DNA of 36,620 nucleotides from a bacterium (GTDB taxonomy: Bacteria; Actinomycetota; Acidimicrobiia; Spongiisociales; JAENVV01). The translations under genes and the position numbers were made by a program. Every line of letters begins with the position of its first letter. Within the stretch, counting starts at the first letter, position 1. Under the pieces are notes generated by a model. It was not told the DNA's origin, made no database searches, and saw only the letters and a list, made by a program, of their open reading frames with translations. Below are positions 13,369 through 20,003 of this stretch, piece after piece. The stretch is taken from the NCBI GenBank assembly GCA_024641305.1, contig JAHEDI010000033.1, forward strand, positions 1-36,620. The letters are read 5' to 3'.

Positions 13369-14154
13369 ATGGGATCATTGGTTTCAAACTTGACGAAGGT
13401 GGTATTGCTCGGGCGGCGAAAGCCCGAAGGCAACGCCTACGAGATAGCAGTAGAACGGTTGGGTTCGGCCATAAGACTCGGATTGTTCCGGGTGGGAGAT
13501 CGCCTGCCGGCGGAACGAGACCTCGCCGCTTACATCGGTGTGAGCCGGGCAACCCTTAGAGAAGCGATCCGTCTCCTAAGCGATCAAGGGACACTTGACG
13601 CCCGCCGGGGTCGGAGCGGGGGCACCTTCGTCATGGCCACTCCCGATCCCCTCACGATCTCCGAGGTACAGGACATGTTCGCCGCCCGGAACACGACGCT
13701 CAGAGAAATCCTTGATCAACGAAAAGTAATCGAGGTCGGCGTTGCCGAGTTGGCCGCCATCCGCGCGACTCCCAGCCAGATAGCCCACCTCAAGAGCATG
13801 CTCCCCCGTTTCGCAGAGTTTCGCAGTGTCACGGTCGAGTACCGGCGACTCGATACCGAGTTCCATTTGATGATCGGCGAAGCTGCCGACAGCCCACGCC
13901 TCCAAGAGTTGCTCGCTGAATGCCATCGGGACCTGAGCGAAATGATGTCAACCGTACCGCATTCAAGCGAAATTCGTGGACACTCGACCGTACAGCACGC
14001 TGAGATTGTGAGAGCTCTGACGACCAGGGACCCGGCGGCGGTCAGAGCCGCGATGTCCGAACACGTGGCGGCCACGTCATCGTTTCTAATCGGACTTCTC
14101 GGGGACCCGGTCGTACCTTCAACTTCTGTTGCTCTGAATTCGACAGGCAACTAA
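13369..14154 (+). CDS. GntR-family transcriptional regulator, FadR/FCD subfamily
   Basis: A 261-residue regulator. The winged helix-turn-helix spans about 22-90: LRPAERDL-like segment RLPAERDLAAYIGVSRATLR, then AIRLLSDQGTLDARRG. The C-terminal helical FCD effector domain spans about 105-240, with the metal-ligand style pattern DTEFHLMIG and later HAEIVRAL. FCD domains bind small organic acids, often with a metal. Position between the divergent amine-catabolic operon and the ABC importer makes it the likely local repressor of both. It heads the rightward unit; the substrate-binding protein gene begins 113 bp later. Confidence 0.92.
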   Translation: MGSLVSNLTKVVLLGRRKPEGNAYEIAVERLGSAIRLGLFRVGDRLPAERDLAAYIGVSRATLREAIRLLSDQGTLDARRGRSGGTFVMATPDPLTISEVQDMFAARNTTLREILDQRKVIEVGVAELAAIRATPSQIAHLKSMLPRFAEFRSVTVEYRRLDTEFHLMIGEAADSPRLQELLAECHRDLSEMMSTVPHSSEIRGHSTVQHAEIVRALTTRDPAAVRAAMSEHVAATSSFLIGLLGDPVVPSTSVALNSTGN

Positions 14155-14267
14155 TCCATTGCGGATGCCGCCAGTCGGGGAAATCCATTCCCTGGTTTGT
14201 TCCCAACTACGGCGCAGGCCGCTCAGCCTTGCTCTACGATGGCGTGGACCAAAAGGAGGCCAACCAT

Positions 14268-15407
14268 ATGAAACGTAACCTTGCCCTTCTCATCGCGTTT
14301 GCGACAATCGCCGCAGCGTGTGGAGGAACCTCAACTGACACTACGGCCGCTCCCGGCACAACCGTGGGAGCGACGAATACGACCACTGCCACAGATGACA
14401 TGGCCGGCTTAGTAGCTGCCGCCGAAGCGGAAGGCATGCTTACCACCATCGCCCTACCCCATGACTGGTGCAATTATGGAGCGGTAATCGACGGCTTCAA
14501 GGCCAAGTACCCGAATATCGAAGTCAACGAACTCGTTCCCGATGCCGGCTCAGCCGACGAGATCGAAGCCATCAAGGCCAACCAGAACAACCCGGGTCCG
14601 CAGGCCCCTGACGTCATCGACGTCGGCCTTGCCTTTGGTCCATCGTCCAAGGCCGACGGCCTCATCCAGCCATACAAGGTGTCAACCTGGGATTCGATCC
14701 CCGATGACGCCAAGGACGCAGAAGGATATTGGTACGGCGACTATTACGGCGTGCTGGCCTTCGAGGTAAACACGGCCGTACAACCGGACGTCCCGACCGA
14801 CTGGGCTGATCTGCTCGATCCCAAGTACAACGGCCAGATTGCTCTCGCTGGCGATCCTCGCGCCTCCAACCAGGCCATTTTCTCGGTGTACGCCTCGGCC
14901 CTTGGCAACGGTGGATCCCTGGACGATGCCCAGCCCGGATTGGACTTCTTCGCGCAACTCAACGCGGCAGGTAACCTCGTCCCCTTGATCGCCGAGTCAG
15001 GTACCGTCGCCTCTGGTGAAACGCCCGTCACGATTCGCTGGACCTACAACGCTTTGGCGAACCGTGATGAGAACGGCGATTCCATCCAGGTTGTCGTTCC
15101 CGCTACCGGCCGATTCGGCGGAGTGTATGTCCAGGCGATCAGCGCCTATGCACCCCACCCCAACGCTGCCAAGCTGTGGATGGAGTACTTGTACTCCGAT
15201 GAAGGACAGCTCGGATGGCTGAGCGGCTACTGCAACCCGATCCGGTATGAGGATATGGCTGCCCGGGGCGTGGTCCCGGCAGATCTCGCCGCCAGCCTGC
15301 CCGACACCGTCGGCGCAGTGTTCCCGACCATTGAGCAGATCGAGGCCGCCAAAGCCCTGATCGTCGATGGATGGGACGCGACCGTCGGCCTCAATGTCGG
15401 TGGCTGA
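14268..15407 (+). CDS. ABC transporter substrate-binding lipoprotein (family 1, Fe3+/polyamine/phosphonate type)
   Basis: A 379-residue extracytoplasmic binding protein. A signal peptide ends in the lipobox AAAC with Cys18, followed by a Thr/Ala-rich linker to about residue 45. The body resembles the type-2 periplasmic fold proteins grouped with PotD, FbpA and the aminoethylphosphonate binders, for example the DVIDVGLAFG and PTDWADLLDPKYNGQIAL segments. Start is ATG at 14268 with AAGGAGG at 14252-14258; the open frame upstream of it is not used. The permease gene overlaps its end. The ligand is not readable; context suggests a small amine or phosphorylated amine. Confidence 0.9.
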   Translation: MKRNLALLIAFATIAAACGGTSTDTTAAPGTTVGATNTTTATDDMAGLVAAAEAEGMLTTIALPHDWCNYGAVIDGFKAKYPNIEVNELVPDAGSADEIEAIKANQNNPGPQAPDVIDVGLAFGPSSKADGLIQPYKVSTWDSIPDDAKDAEGYWYGDYYGVLAFEVNTAVQPDVPTDWADLLDPKYNGQIALAGDPRASNQAIFSVYASALGNGGSLDDAQPGLDFFAQLNAAGNLVPLIAESGTVASGETPVTIRWTYNALANRDENGDSIQVVVPATGRFGGVYVQAISAYAPHPNAAKLWMEYLYSDEGQLGWLSGYCNPIRYEDMAARGVVPADLAASLPDTVGAVFPTIEQIEAAKALIVDGWDATVGLNVGG

Positions 15408-16290
15408 GACAGTCGATAAGGACATGGGGGGCGCCAAGCGCCCCCCATTCCGTTTCCGGTGGAACTGGTTGGGAGTCATGCCCTTCTTGCTGTTCGCCGG
15501 TGCGCTACTGATTCTGCCGACCATCGTCCTCGGCGCCCGCAGCCTGGCGGGAGCTGACGGATCCACCACACTCGACAATTACCGCAGCCTGGCTACTCCG
15601 GTCGTGATCGATTCGTTCAGACTTTCGATCAAGATCAGTCTCATCACCGCCCTCGTCGGAGGGATCTTCGGCTTCTTGCTTGCCTGGTCGATGGTGCTCG
15701 GAGGCCTTCCCAAACCCGTTCGGTCACTCCTCAGTACCTTTTCAGGGGTCGCCTCCAATTTCGCCGGTGTGCCATTGGCTGCCGCATTCATCGCAACGGT
15801 GGGAAGGGTCGGCCTATTCACCATCCTGCTCAAAGCTGCCGGATTCGACATGTACAAAGCCGGATTCGATCTCTATTCATTCATCGGGATCTCGGTTGTA
15901 TACCTCTATTTCCAATTCCCGCTCATGGTCCTGGTGATCACGCCCTCCATTGAAGGGCTGAAGGAGGAGTGGCGCGAAGCCTCAGAGAACCTTGGCGCGT
16001 CGACCTACCAGTACTGGCGATACATCGCTTTGCCGGTGCTCATGCCGTCGATCCTCGGCGCCATGATTTTGCTGTTCGGGAACGCGTTCGGGGCTCACGC
16101 CACCGCTTTTGCCCTGACCGGTGGCAACCTTCGTTTGGCGACCATCCTGATCGGCCAGCAGATTTCGGGCGACGTGTTACAGAACCCCGGCCTCGGATAT
16201 GCAGTGGCGATGGGCATGGTGGCGGTCATGGCCGTCTCGATTGGCATCTATTCAATCTTGCAGCGCCGGTCGGAGAGGTGGCTGGCATGA
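15394..16290 (+). CDS. ABC transporter permease, first subunit
   Basis: About 298 residues with six hydrophobic segments. The cytoplasmic EAA loop that docks on the ATPase is at EEWREASENLGASTYQYWRY. It belongs to the binding-protein-dependent permease family used with PotB/FbpB-type systems. The start is unsure: ATG at 15394 overlaps the binding-protein stop by 14 nt, ATG at 15424 is also possible, and no strong ribosome-binding site precedes either. Its stop overlaps the second permease start as ATGA. Confidence 0.9.
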   Translation: MSVAETVDKDMGGAKRPPFRFRWNWLGVMPFLLFAGALLILPTIVLGARSLAGADGSTTLDNYRSLATPVVIDSFRLSIKISLITALVGGIFGFLLAWSMVLGGLPKPVRSLLSTFSGVASNFAGVPLAAAFIATVGRVGLFTILLKAAGFDMYKAGFDLYSFIGISVVYLYFQFPLMVLVITPSIEGLKEEWREASENLGASTYQYWRYIALPVLMPSILGAMILLFGNAFGAHATAFALTGGNLRLATILIGQQISGDVLQNPGLGYAVAMGMVAVMAVSIGIYSILQRRSERWLA

Positions 16291-17153
16291 CCATCGCCGG
16301 GCAATCAGGATCGCTCACCGGGCATGGTGCGACCGGCGGAGCGGGCAAGCCGACCGGACCGACCCCGGTTCCTCCACAACGCAGCCTGATACGACGACTT
16401 TGGCCATGGCTTATTGTCGCCTTAGGTGTTGTGTATTTCGTGACACCCCTGCTCGGGACCATCCGGCTCTCACTCAGGCACAACAAGGGAACTTGGGAAG
16501 CGTGGAGGCTCATACTCGGGAACGAACAAATGTGGCCGGCCTTCGGCCAGTCGATCGTCAATGGATTGGCCACGATCGTGGTGAGTTTGGTCATCATCGT
16601 CCCGACCGCTTACTGGGTGGCACTCAAAATGCCGCGGTTGAGGCCGTTCATCGAGTTCATCACATTGCTCCCGTTCGTTATCCCCGGCGTTGTGCTCGTA
16701 CTGGCCCTTATCCGGCTCTACTCGGCTCCGCCGCTCCTCCTGACTTCCACCTACAACTCGACGCGCATCGTGATGATCTGCGCGTATGCCGCTCTTTCGT
16801 TCCCGTACATGTACCGGTCCGTCGACAACGGTCTCCGCTCGATCGATGTGCGATCGCTGACCGAGGCAGCGCAAAGTTTGGGCGCCGGATGGCCAACGAT
16901 CGTGACGAAGGTGATTTTTCCCAACATCAGACTGGCCATCCTCTCCGGGGCCTTGCTCACGTTCGCCATCGTCCTTGGCGAACTGACGATCGCCCTCTAC
17001 ATGGCTCAGCGGACTCTGGCGCCGTTCATGGCCGACATCGTTCGCAACAAACCGTTCGAGGCCGCCGCGCTGACACTGATCGCCTTCTCGGTCACCTGGC
17101 TCGCCTTGGGCATGATTTCGTACGTCACCAATCGGGCAGGGAGAAGAACATGA
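16287..17153 (+). CDS. ABC transporter permease, second subunit
   Basis: A 288-residue permease. The first ~35 residues are a Gly/Pro/Thr-rich cytoplasmic extension, followed by about six membrane helices. The EAA loop is at LTEAAQSLGAGWPTIVTKVI. Start is the ATG at 16287 in an ATGA overlap with the first permease; the stop overlaps the ATPase start, again ATGA. The coupling of all three transporter genes indicates one complex. It pairs with the first subunit to form the membrane channel of the importer. Confidence 0.92.
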   Translation: MTIAGQSGSLTGHGATGGAGKPTGPTPVPPQRSLIRRLWPWLIVALGVVYFVTPLLGTIRLSLRHNKGTWEAWRLILGNEQMWPAFGQSIVNGLATIVVSLVIIVPTAYWVALKMPRLRPFIEFITLLPFVIPGVVLVLALIRLYSAPPLLLTSTYNSTRIVMICAYAALSFPYMYRSVDNGLRSIDVRSLTEAAQSLGAGWPTIVTKVIFPNIRLAILSGALLTFAIVLGELTIALYMAQRTLAPFMADIVRNKPFEAAALTLIAFSVTWLALGMISYVTNRAGRRT

Positions 17154-18199
17154 CATATCTCACATTGGAAGGTGTCCGCAAGACCTTCGGCGACATGGTG
17201 GCGGTTTCGGACTTCAACCTCTCGGTCGAACCGGGCGAGTTCGTGTCTTTCCTCGGACCGTCAGGTTGTGGAAAAACAACGACGCTGCGGATGGTGGGCG
17301 GCTTCGAACAGCCGACCGCCGGTCGCATCACCCTCGCAGGTGAGGACATCACCCACGCCCGACCCGCCACTCGTGACGTTGGAATGGTGTTCCAGTCCTA
17401 CGCCCTATTCCCGAACATGACTGTCGCAGAGAACATCGGCTTCGGCCTCAAAGTGAAGAACGTCGACAAACATGAGATCCACACCAGGGTCGACGAACTG
17501 TTGGGCCTGATCGGTCTTCCGGAGAAGGCCAAGAGGTTCCCATTTGAGCTGTCCGGCGGTCAGCAACAGCGCGTGGCGCTGGCGCGCGCCCTGGCGATCC
17601 GACCCAAAGTCCTGCTTCTCGACGAACCGCTCTCGGCGCTCGACGCCAAAATCCGGGACGAACTTCGAAACGAAATCAAGCGAATTCAGCGTTCCCTGGA
17701 AATCACCACCATCTATGTCACCCATGACCAGGAAGAGGCAATGGCGCTTTCTGACCGGGTGGTCGTGATGAGCAAGGGCGAGATGGAACAAGTCGGCAAA
17801 CCGTTTGAGATCTATAACTATCCGTCCACCGAATTCGTAGCTTCGTTCGTCGGGCGTCTCAACCGGGTCAGTGCCGCCGTCATCGATGCGGGCCTGGGAA
17901 CGGTCGGTATCGACGAAACCGTCATCACCACCGGGGCGAAGATCGAGAGACCGCAAGGGTCTCTGGTTGACATCATGTTAAGACCGGAAGAACTCGAGCT
18001 GAACGGTTCGCACACCAATCGCATTCCAGGGACGATCGAGACCGTATCGTTCCTTGGCTCGATCGTCCGTGTTGTTGTTGATGCGGGCAAGATCCCGCTG
18101 ACCGTAGACATCTTCAACGAACGGCTTCTGGATATGCCATCGGTCGGGGACATCGTCGAGGTGACGTTCCCGCCTCACGCCTGCTGGGTCTTGAGCTGA
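17150..18199 (+). CDS. ABC transporter ATP-binding protein (PotA-like, with TOBE domain)
   Basis: A 349-residue nucleotide-binding subunit. Walker A is GPSGCGKTT near residue 40, the Q-loop is VFQSYALFP, the signature is LSGGQQQRVALARAL, Walker B is LLLDEPLSALD and the switch His is in YVTHDQEEA. The C-terminal ~110 residues form a TOBE regulatory domain, as in PotA, FbpC and PhnT-type subunits. Start is ATG at 17150, overlapping the second permease stop. It powers the importer formed by the preceding three genes and is followed 24 bp later by the HAD phosphatase gene. Confidence 0.95.
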   Translation: MTYLTLEGVRKTFGDMVAVSDFNLSVEPGEFVSFLGPSGCGKTTTLRMVGGFEQPTAGRITLAGEDITHARPATRDVGMVFQSYALFPNMTVAENIGFGLKVKNVDKHEIHTRVDELLGLIGLPEKAKRFPFELSGGQQQRVALARALAIRPKVLLLDEPLSALDAKIRDELRNEIKRIQRSLEITTIYVTHDQEEAMALSDRVVVMSKGEMEQVGKPFEIYNYPSTEFVASFVGRLNRVSAAVIDAGLGTVGIDETVITTGAKIERPQGSLVDIMLRPEELELNGSHTNRIPGTIETVSFLGSIVRVVVDAGKIPLTVDIFNERLLDMPSVGDIVEVTFPPHACWVLS

Positions 18200-18223
18200 C
18201 ATCCGCTTGACGGTTGAACTTCG

Positions 18224-18952
18224 ATGATCATTAGAGCTGGTGGCGCCCGATTTGACGTCGATGCCGTTATCTTCGACAAAGACGGCACCTTGATCGATCT
18301 ACTCGCTTCGTGGTCTCCGGCCGGGCAGGCATGGATCGAGGTGGCCTCGGGCGGAGACACGAAACTTGCCGAGGAACTTGGAAACGTGATCGGGGTTCAC
18401 AACGGCGAGGTTGTCGCCAACGGGCTCCTAGCGGCCGGCACGATGGGACAGCTCCAGTCGGAGACGAGAGCAGTCCTCGAACACCACGGGATCGTCAACG
18501 TCGCAGGTCGAATCACCCGCGCCCGGGAATTGGCTGCCCGTATCACCAACGAACATCTGACCCCGATCGGAACAGTGGCCGGCACTCTGCAACGGCTGGC
18601 AACCGCCGGGGCGAAGATCGGTGTCGTCACCTCCGACGATCGAGGAGCCACCCTTGACGCCCTCGACCAGCTCGGAATCAGCGAACTCGTCGACGTGATC
18701 GTGGCCGGGGACGATGCCGTTGCTCCCAAACCTTCCCCCGAACCGCTTCGCCTCGGCGCAGCCGGCCTCGGCGTATCGATTGAACGAACCCTGTACGTGG
18801 GGGATTCGAACGTCGACCGGGAAGCAGCGCTCTCGGCTCCAGCTGCCGGTTTTGTACTGGTCGCCAGCGAGCCTCCAAAGAAGTGGCTGCCAGGCGTAGA
18901 CGCCATCGTCAAGTCAATCGACGAACTCATGATCGAGGCCGATAGCGAGTGA
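18224..18952 (+). CDS. HAD-superfamily phosphatase (Gph-like)
   Basis: A 242-residue cytoplasmic hydrolase. HAD motif I is DKDGTL with nucleophile Asp18 and Asp20, motif II is in VVTSDD, motif III Lys is in APKPSPE and motif IV is GDSNVD. A helical cap sits between motifs I and II, as in phosphoglycolate phosphatases. It is not a phosphonatase by motif I, which would read DxAGT. Being last in the importer operon it may dephosphorylate an imported phosphorylated compound, for instance to release an amino alcohol for the divergent operon. The substrate is a guess; housekeeping metabolite repair is the alternative. Confidence 0.88.
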   Translation: MIIRAGGARFDVDAVIFDKDGTLIDLLASWSPAGQAWIEVASGGDTKLAEELGNVIGVHNGEVVANGLLAAGTMGQLQSETRAVLEHHGIVNVAGRITRARELAARITNEHLTPIGTVAGTLQRLATAGAKIGVVTSDDRGATLDALDQLGISELVDVIVAGDDAVAPKPSPEPLRLGAAGLGVSIERTLYVGDSNVDREAALSAPAAGFVLVASEPPKKWLPGVDAIVKSIDELMIEADSE

Positions 18953-19134: not shown

Positions 19135-19269
19135 CTAGCTCCCGGTTGAGCGGTCGAGCGGCTTCTTTACGCCACCGCTCTTCTTGGCTTTCTTATCGAG
19201 GCGTTTCTCCTTCAGGCCCTTCGCGGCGGCTTTCTTGGGACTGCTCTTGCCTTTGTCTTTGTTAGCCAT
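19135..19269 (-). CDS. Lysine-rich basic mini-protein
   Basis: A 44-residue protein beginning MANKDKGKSSPKK and ending KKPLDRSTGS, with 15 lysines and no hydrophobic core. A perfect AGGAGG at 19275-19280 lies 5 nt before the ATG, which strongly supports translation. Similar lysine-rich peptides with a LKEKRxxKKAKK core are common in actinobacteria and usually annotated hypothetical. A nucleic-acid or ribosome-binding role is plausible from charge only. It is transcribed away from the selenoprotein gene, with a 116-bp shared upstream region. Confidence 0.8.
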   Translation of the reverse strand: MANKDKGKSSPKKAAAKGLKEKRLDKKAKKSGGVKKPLDRSTGS

Positions 19270-19385
19270 CAGTTCCTCCTGGTTGGCACTTGTGACGATA
19301 GCCCGGTTGCCGATGGCAAAACGCGCGACCGATCGTGCCTTCTGCGGCCGCGGTTAGAGTCTTCTCACGCTATCAAAGGTACCGC

Positions 19386-20003
19386 GTGGATATCAGCATC
19401 TGGATCGACCCCATATGACCGTGGTGTTGGGTGACGGCCCGGTGGGTCGTCGAGCGAGTACAGCCTGAACGCGACCTCAACGTCACGTGGGAGCCGATCA
19501 GTCTGTTTTTCAAGAACGACCCGGATCCCGATAGCGACTCCTACGAACGGTACTGGCGCACCCACCGCCTGTTGAGGGTCATCGAGTCGGTTCGAACGAC
19601 CGACGGCAACGATGGCGTCTTCAAGCTGTATTGGGAACTGGGCCGGCGAATCCATCACGACAAGTCGTTGATGGAATTGTCTGTTCACGATGCGCTTGAG
19701 TCAACGGGCCTCGCCGTGTCTCATGCCGCTGCTTTCGACGATGAAGCCTGGGACGCCGAGATCCAAACCCGGATGGACGTCGGATTGGAACTGGCGGGCA
19801 CCGACATTGGTACGCCCATCATTGCGTTCGACGACGCGGCCGGTGACCGGGTAGGCATTTTCGGACCGGTGATCACTCGCGTTCCGGAAGGCGACCTGTC
19901 GCTTCAGCTCTGGGATGGCCTGGTCTCGGTGATGACGGTTCCGGGTTTTTGGGAACTCAAACGCACCCGAACCGAGCGCCCGGATTTCGGCCCCCGCCCG
20001 TAA
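19386..20003 (+). CDS. Selenoprotein: DsbA-family, mycothiol-dependent reductase-like, Sec-Pro-Trp-Cys active site
   Basis: A 205-residue thioredoxin-fold protein, read through TGA at 19416-19418 as selenocysteine 11. It starts at GTG 19386 with AAAGG at 19375-19379. The N-terminus reads IWIDPI-U-PWCW, matching the FDPLCPWCW segment of the Rv2466c family from memory, with the first redox Cys replaced by Sec and the second, Cys14, kept. Downstream it follows the same family closely (GRRIHHDKS, ALESTGLA, GTDIGTPIIAF, GIFGPVITRVPEG, FWELKRTRTE), and the total length matches the ~207-residue family size. No other stop or frameshift interrupts the frame. A SECIS-like hairpin follows the TGA. Expected role is thiol/mycothiol-linked reduction of disulfides or electrophiles in the cytoplasm. 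The Sec machinery is not in this window; a point-mutated Cys codon is the alternative. Confidence 0.85.
19416..19451 (+). promoter_or_regulatory. Predicted bacterial SECIS element with UGA(Sec) codon
   Basis: UGA at 19416-19418 is followed after 14 nt by GACGGCCC (19433-19440), loop GGU (19441-19443) and GGGTCGTC (19444-19451). The stem is 8 bp, one of them a G-U pair. The apical loop starts 22 nt after the UGA and has G at its first two positions, both within the usual features of bacterial SECIS elements recognised by SelB. Confidence 0.7.

Follow-up and report, generated by a model that had tools for sequence, protein, structure and literature searches.

The locus analysed here raises the question of whether an in-frame TGA codon, situated where a family of thiol oxidoreductases carries its nucleophilic cysteine, is translated as selenocysteine (Sec). 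In the window, meaning the whole 36,620 nucleotide stretch of DNA that was analysed, the forward-strand frame opening with GTG at 19386 reads VDISIWIDPI-TGA-PWCWVTARWVVERV... and ends with TAA at 20001-20003, the TGA at 19416-19418 being its sole interruption. Read through, the gene (19386-20003) specifies a 205 aa Rv2466c-like (PF22234) oxidoreductase of the DsbA fold, with Sec at residue 11 within the active-site motif DPI-U-PWCW and a resolving cysteine, Cys14, encoded by TGT at 19425-19427. A mechanical list of open reading frames instead opens the gene at GTG 19431, past the active site, which is consequently lost. The sequence-only reading had described both this loss and the recovery of a U-P-W-C motif by extension to GTG 19386, with TGA as the only interruption, and the frames bear it out on each point. 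The interpretation favoured here, to which we give a probability of roughly 95%, is that the product is an Rv2466c-like thiol oxidoreductase, probably located in the cytosol, in which the attacking cysteine would be replaced by a SelB-decoded Sec.

With the TGA translated as cysteine, the read-through protein scores 133 bits against the Pfam profile PF22234 (cut-off 27), residues 10-193 matching profile positions 1-180, whereas its score against PF01323 (DSBA) is 24.8 bits, just below the cut-off of 25.6, and covers residues 3-43 only. The best PDB sequence matches (4wkw, 4zil, 4nxi and 5xur) are the Rv2466c proteins of M. leprae and M. tuberculosis; in the alignment with 4zil, residues 11 and 14 fall on Cys19 and Cys22, the attacking and resolving cysteines of Rv2466c, respectively (PMC11841060). 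The CPWC positions are kept in the window protein, with Cys19 replaced by Sec (UPWC), the TGA lying in the column of the first CPWC cysteine, and this Sec/Cys column is otherwise invariant. NCBIfam contains no model for the protein. An AlphaFold model (mean pLDDT 96.5), built from 27 family members, displays the DsbA fold with a helical insert as in Rv2466c structures, and the top ten PDB matches to it are Rv2466c-type chains without exception (TM 0.76-0.84). Far behind these come other DsbA-like proteins and FrnE (E about 1e-5), whose group we take to be COG2761.

This placement bears on the alternative that survives best, namely that the protein corresponds to a selenoprotein already on record under a different name, either 'DsbA-like protein form 1' (PF01323, UxxC) or one of the other DsbA groups covered by surveys. 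The fold class and the UxxC motif are the same, the 2026 inventory defines form 1 only by PF01323 and one accession, and the 'DsbA 2' group of the 2008 ocean survey (GOS) has only weak PF01323 similarity. Such an identity is nevertheless unlikely: the window protein falls just short of the PF01323 threshold while far exceeding that of PF22234, the DsbA-like set of 2005 was assigned to COG2761 (PMC1088965), FrnE is a much more distant structural match, and none of the papers searched names both selenoprotein and Rv2466c. Likewise, neither Rv2466c nor PF22234 appears among the 119 prokaryotic selenoprotein families inventoried in May 2026, the nearest entries being DsbA-like form 1 (PF01323, UxxC) and form 2 (DxxUP) (PMC13188914), in keeping with the initial suggestion that a Sec version of this family is not commonly described. 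In the papers searched, selenocysteine is seldom mentioned together with Acidimicrobiia or related names. The gene appears to represent the Rv2466c type, a family known in its Cys form, in a Sec version for which we found no description; that one was published earlier under another name is possible, if improbable.

Translation from GTG 19431, giving a shortened protein that lacks the active site, is the annotation a standard gene caller would produce, but it is very improbable that this is the true start. The upstream first strand and DPI-U-PWCW show conservation at the protein level and line up with the CPWC of all relatives, and the shorter product would lose beta strand 1 along with the active site. 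A probable ribosome-binding region at 19370-19385 on the forward strand, judged from this sequence and those of relatives, precedes GTG 19386. The ribosome-binding site originally proposed there is present (AAAGG shortly 5' of the GTG), although it is only moderate in this genome and clear in relatives (AGGAGAGG). In the window a further in-frame GTG occurs at 19335, but two relatives (L022 and L024) have ATG at the position of GTG 19386, immediately preceded in L022 by a stop. Divergent from the selenoprotein gene lies a 44 aa lysine-rich ORF (19135-19269, reverse strand; MANKDKGKSSPKKAAAKGLKEKR...). Beyond it, 13369-18952 holds a cluster of a GntR regulator, a solute-binding protein, two permeases, an ATPase and a HAD hydrolase that looks like a phosphonate-type uptake operon, the ATPase being nearest to the 2-aminoethylphosphonate type (PhnT2, 410.6 bits, under its cut-off).

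In one sequence viewed alone, an isolated in-frame stop close to the 5' end is what would be expected from an assembly or sequencing error, or from a nonsense mutation that had turned the gene into a pseudogene. The same TGA is, however, found at the position of codon 11 in 43 Acidimicrobiia genomes from ten families, in genes 57-94% identical that come from many projects. Within the order, 47 of 138 genomes contain a relative, 24 of which have one in-frame TGA, always at the same codon, and the more distant relatives examined in the order have TGT or TGC there; the class beyond the order adds 19 TGA-form genomes from six more families. A separate, partially overlapping named collection has 22 TGA loci (59-92% identity; records labelled Acidimicrobiia, Acidimicrobiales or Acidimicrobiaceae) against 58 TGC/TGT loci, which include Leucobacter, Rothia and Desulfobacterales. 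Across a phylum-wide spread of 396 genomes, high-identity TGA matches came only from the same class. Four weak single-TGA relatives (L133, L134, L139 and L140) were discarded, as their TGA is the ordinary stop codon closing the matched region and lies outside the active site. Downstream of the TGA, the frames of relatives are intact and the protein sequence is conserved. This conservation therefore excludes a lone pseudogene or sequencing error for practical purposes, including the base error at 19418 raised as a possible objection by the sequence-only reading. Gene neighbourhoods have no conserved partner between distant families, and the TGA codon is therefore kept on its own merit.

Following the TGA, the sequence CCGTGGTGTTGGGTGACGGCCCGGTGGGTCGTC contains the SECIS-like hairpin proposed at the outset, GACGGCCC-GGU-GGGUCGUC (19433-19451, forward strand), which begins 14 bases after the codon. 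GACGGCCC (19433-19440) pairs with GGGUCGUC (19444-19451) in an 8 bp stem around a GGU loop (19441-19443), and 22 bases separate the TGA from the loop G. Bacterial SECIS elements are reported to have a small apical loop with a guanosine (PMC1088965), and the window hairpin, just 3' of the TGA, has a G in such a loop. No Rfam family matched it, searches around the gene at E<=10 giving chance matches only. Taken alone the hairpin does not stand out: its z-score is -0.8, and 1.9% of synonymous recodings fold equally well. The strong evidence for this putative element is comparative. Each of the 65 TGA loci, some of which are not independent of one another, retains seven or eight of the eight stem pairs, whereas the 83 Cys loci mostly have three to five, with all eight kept in just one; the hairpin segment has an energy of -11.5 kcal/mol in TGA loci and -3.7 kcal/mol in Cys loci. 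In a set of 27 non-identical sequences, standard pairs occupy 95.8% of the pair cells, compared with 18-60% in slid controls. Changes on both sides affect two stem pairs, a result reached by 0-4 of 500 shuffles: a G-C pair is replaced by A-U in L040 and by U-A in L146, while L137 has the outer pair flipped. Synonymous identity of the stem codons (GTG ACG GCC ... GTC GTC) is 0.89-1.0 in Sec genes and 0.34-0.49 in the same columns of Cys genes. Synonymous-codon identity in Sec genes averages 0.79 over codons +1 to +13 and 0.51 over the remaining codons (P = 0.002), while the corresponding values in Cys genes are 0.47 and 0.44 (P = 0.37).

The genome (3.42 Mb, 97% complete) encodes each component of the selenocysteine machinery that was sought: a tRNA-Sec (76.3 bits; anticodon tca according to ARAGORN), a selA gene on contig 77 that about 20 bases separate from the selB following it, and, on contig 60, selD (L018/L179; G000:C60:41802-42731). 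The selD gene is itself a selenoprotein gene, with an in-frame TGA at GAG-U-ACK and a hairpin with a GGUUC loop about 32 bases after it. Among Sec-form genomes, selA was not found in G032 (96% complete; L032), through an assembly gap or loss, or in G005 (68% complete). As selA is common in the order, being present in most genomes including some that lack the Sec-form gene, its co-occurrence with the gene is weak evidence. TGA is the normal stop of nine of the 23 window genes, and therefore has not been reassigned. That the TGA is decoded as Cys or Trp, or by leaky read-through, would accord with the cysteine found in this column in relatives, but is negligibly probable given the normal use of TGA as a stop, a genome with tRNA-Sec, selA, selB and a Sec-type selD, and a SECIS-like hairpin conserved only beside the TGA.

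The distribution of Sec and Cys forms suggests that exchange between them has occurred. In a maximum-likelihood tree of 106 proteins, 32 Sec and eight Cys rows group together in a supported clade (99/88) that lies within Cys relatives, with one Cys protein (L068) nested among the Sec rows. Another Cys gene (L163; G158:C1:127249-127872), with TGC and a CPFC motif, has kept all eight pairs of the SECIS-like stem, and this hairpin is interpreted as a fossil left by a recent change from Sec to Cys. The nested position of L068 and the retained hairpin of L163 together indicate that Sec-to-Cys reversion has happened. A more distant relative (L137; G373:C14:9608-10228), from a different PF22234 subfamily, has an in-frame TGA at the Sec column in a U-P-F-A-Y context that lacks the resolving Cys, followed by a hairpin similar to that of the window (CACGUCCC-GGU-GGGUCGUG); this appears to be an independent gain of Sec, based on one genome.

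The sequence-only reading had also described the protein as mycothiol-linked. While a Sec protein of the Rv2466c type is supported, the link to mycothiol is unproven. The MshC model (TIGR03447) reached its cut-off in none of the order's 138 genomes, an apparent match in the genome of the window proving to be CysS, which scores 482.6 bits with the cysS model, and the same genome's MshA-like protein (G000:C40:42816-44012; L176 5808-7028) scores 445.5 bits against a cut-off of 462.5. A short ORF after the MshA-like gene looks YbjN-like. An MshA-like gene in an order without detectable MshC suggests an incomplete or altered mycothiol pathway; a published study reports the pathway in Acidimicrobium ferrooxidans (PMC4255298). 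The label 'mycothiol-dependent' is not established for the window protein and should not yet be carried over to it. A broader proposal, for which the odds are somewhat short of even, is that these genes form an uncatalogued selenoprotein family, found widely across Acidimicrobiia, whose Rv2466c-type reductase would operate with selenium and a non-mycothiol reductant, and whose members switch between Sec and Cys, as seen in the fossil hairpin, the nested Cys member and the independent gain in the UPFA subfamily.

If the gene is expressed as a selenoprotein, SelB would bring Sec-tRNA to the UGA at codon 11, guided by the hairpin 14 bases downstream, so that the ribosome would read through to a 205-residue protein and not stop at a 10-residue peptide. 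By analogy with the Cys19/Cys22 chemistry of Rv2466c, Sec11 would attack the substrate, Cys14 would resolve the bond by forming a selenenylsulfide, and the enzyme would be re-reduced by a thiol system of the cell. Substrates of the disulfide or nitro type may be reduced, as in Rv2466c.

These observations add a well-supported Sec form to a family known in mycobacteria for activating prodrugs and for acting as an oxidative-stress reductase. In every carrier genome, standard gene calling would misannotate the gene, shifting its start and losing its active site. Natural Sec/Cys pairs, including the reverted Cys gene with its hairpin, could show what selenium buys in such chemistry. With selA in most genomes of the order, Acidimicrobiia are also marked as a little-described group of selenium users.

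Among known systems, full-length sequence and fold similarity is greatest with Rv2466c (Mrx2), the mycothiol-dependent nitroreductase of M. tuberculosis (PF22234; 4zil, 4nxi, 5xur), with which the window protein shares a DPxCPWCW-type active site and conserved FGPV and ELKR motifs. It differs in having Sec at the nucleophilic Cys19 position and a SECIS-like hairpin inside the coding sequence, and in belonging to an order in which mycothiol biosynthesis is not confirmed. The DsbA-like form 1 selenoproteins (PF01323, UxxC; reported from the Sargasso Sea in 2005, PMC1088965, and listed in PMC13188914 with the representative NIP15863.1) share the DsbA fold superfamily and the UxxC motif with the window protein. 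They were described from ocean metagenomes under COG2761 (PMC1088965), and the window protein, which misses the PF01323 cut-off, probably belongs to a different subfamily. The Sec-containing SelD of the same genome is an unrelated protein, with its hairpin further from the TGA, yet it shares with the window gene both the in-frame TGA and a downstream hairpin with GGU in the loop.
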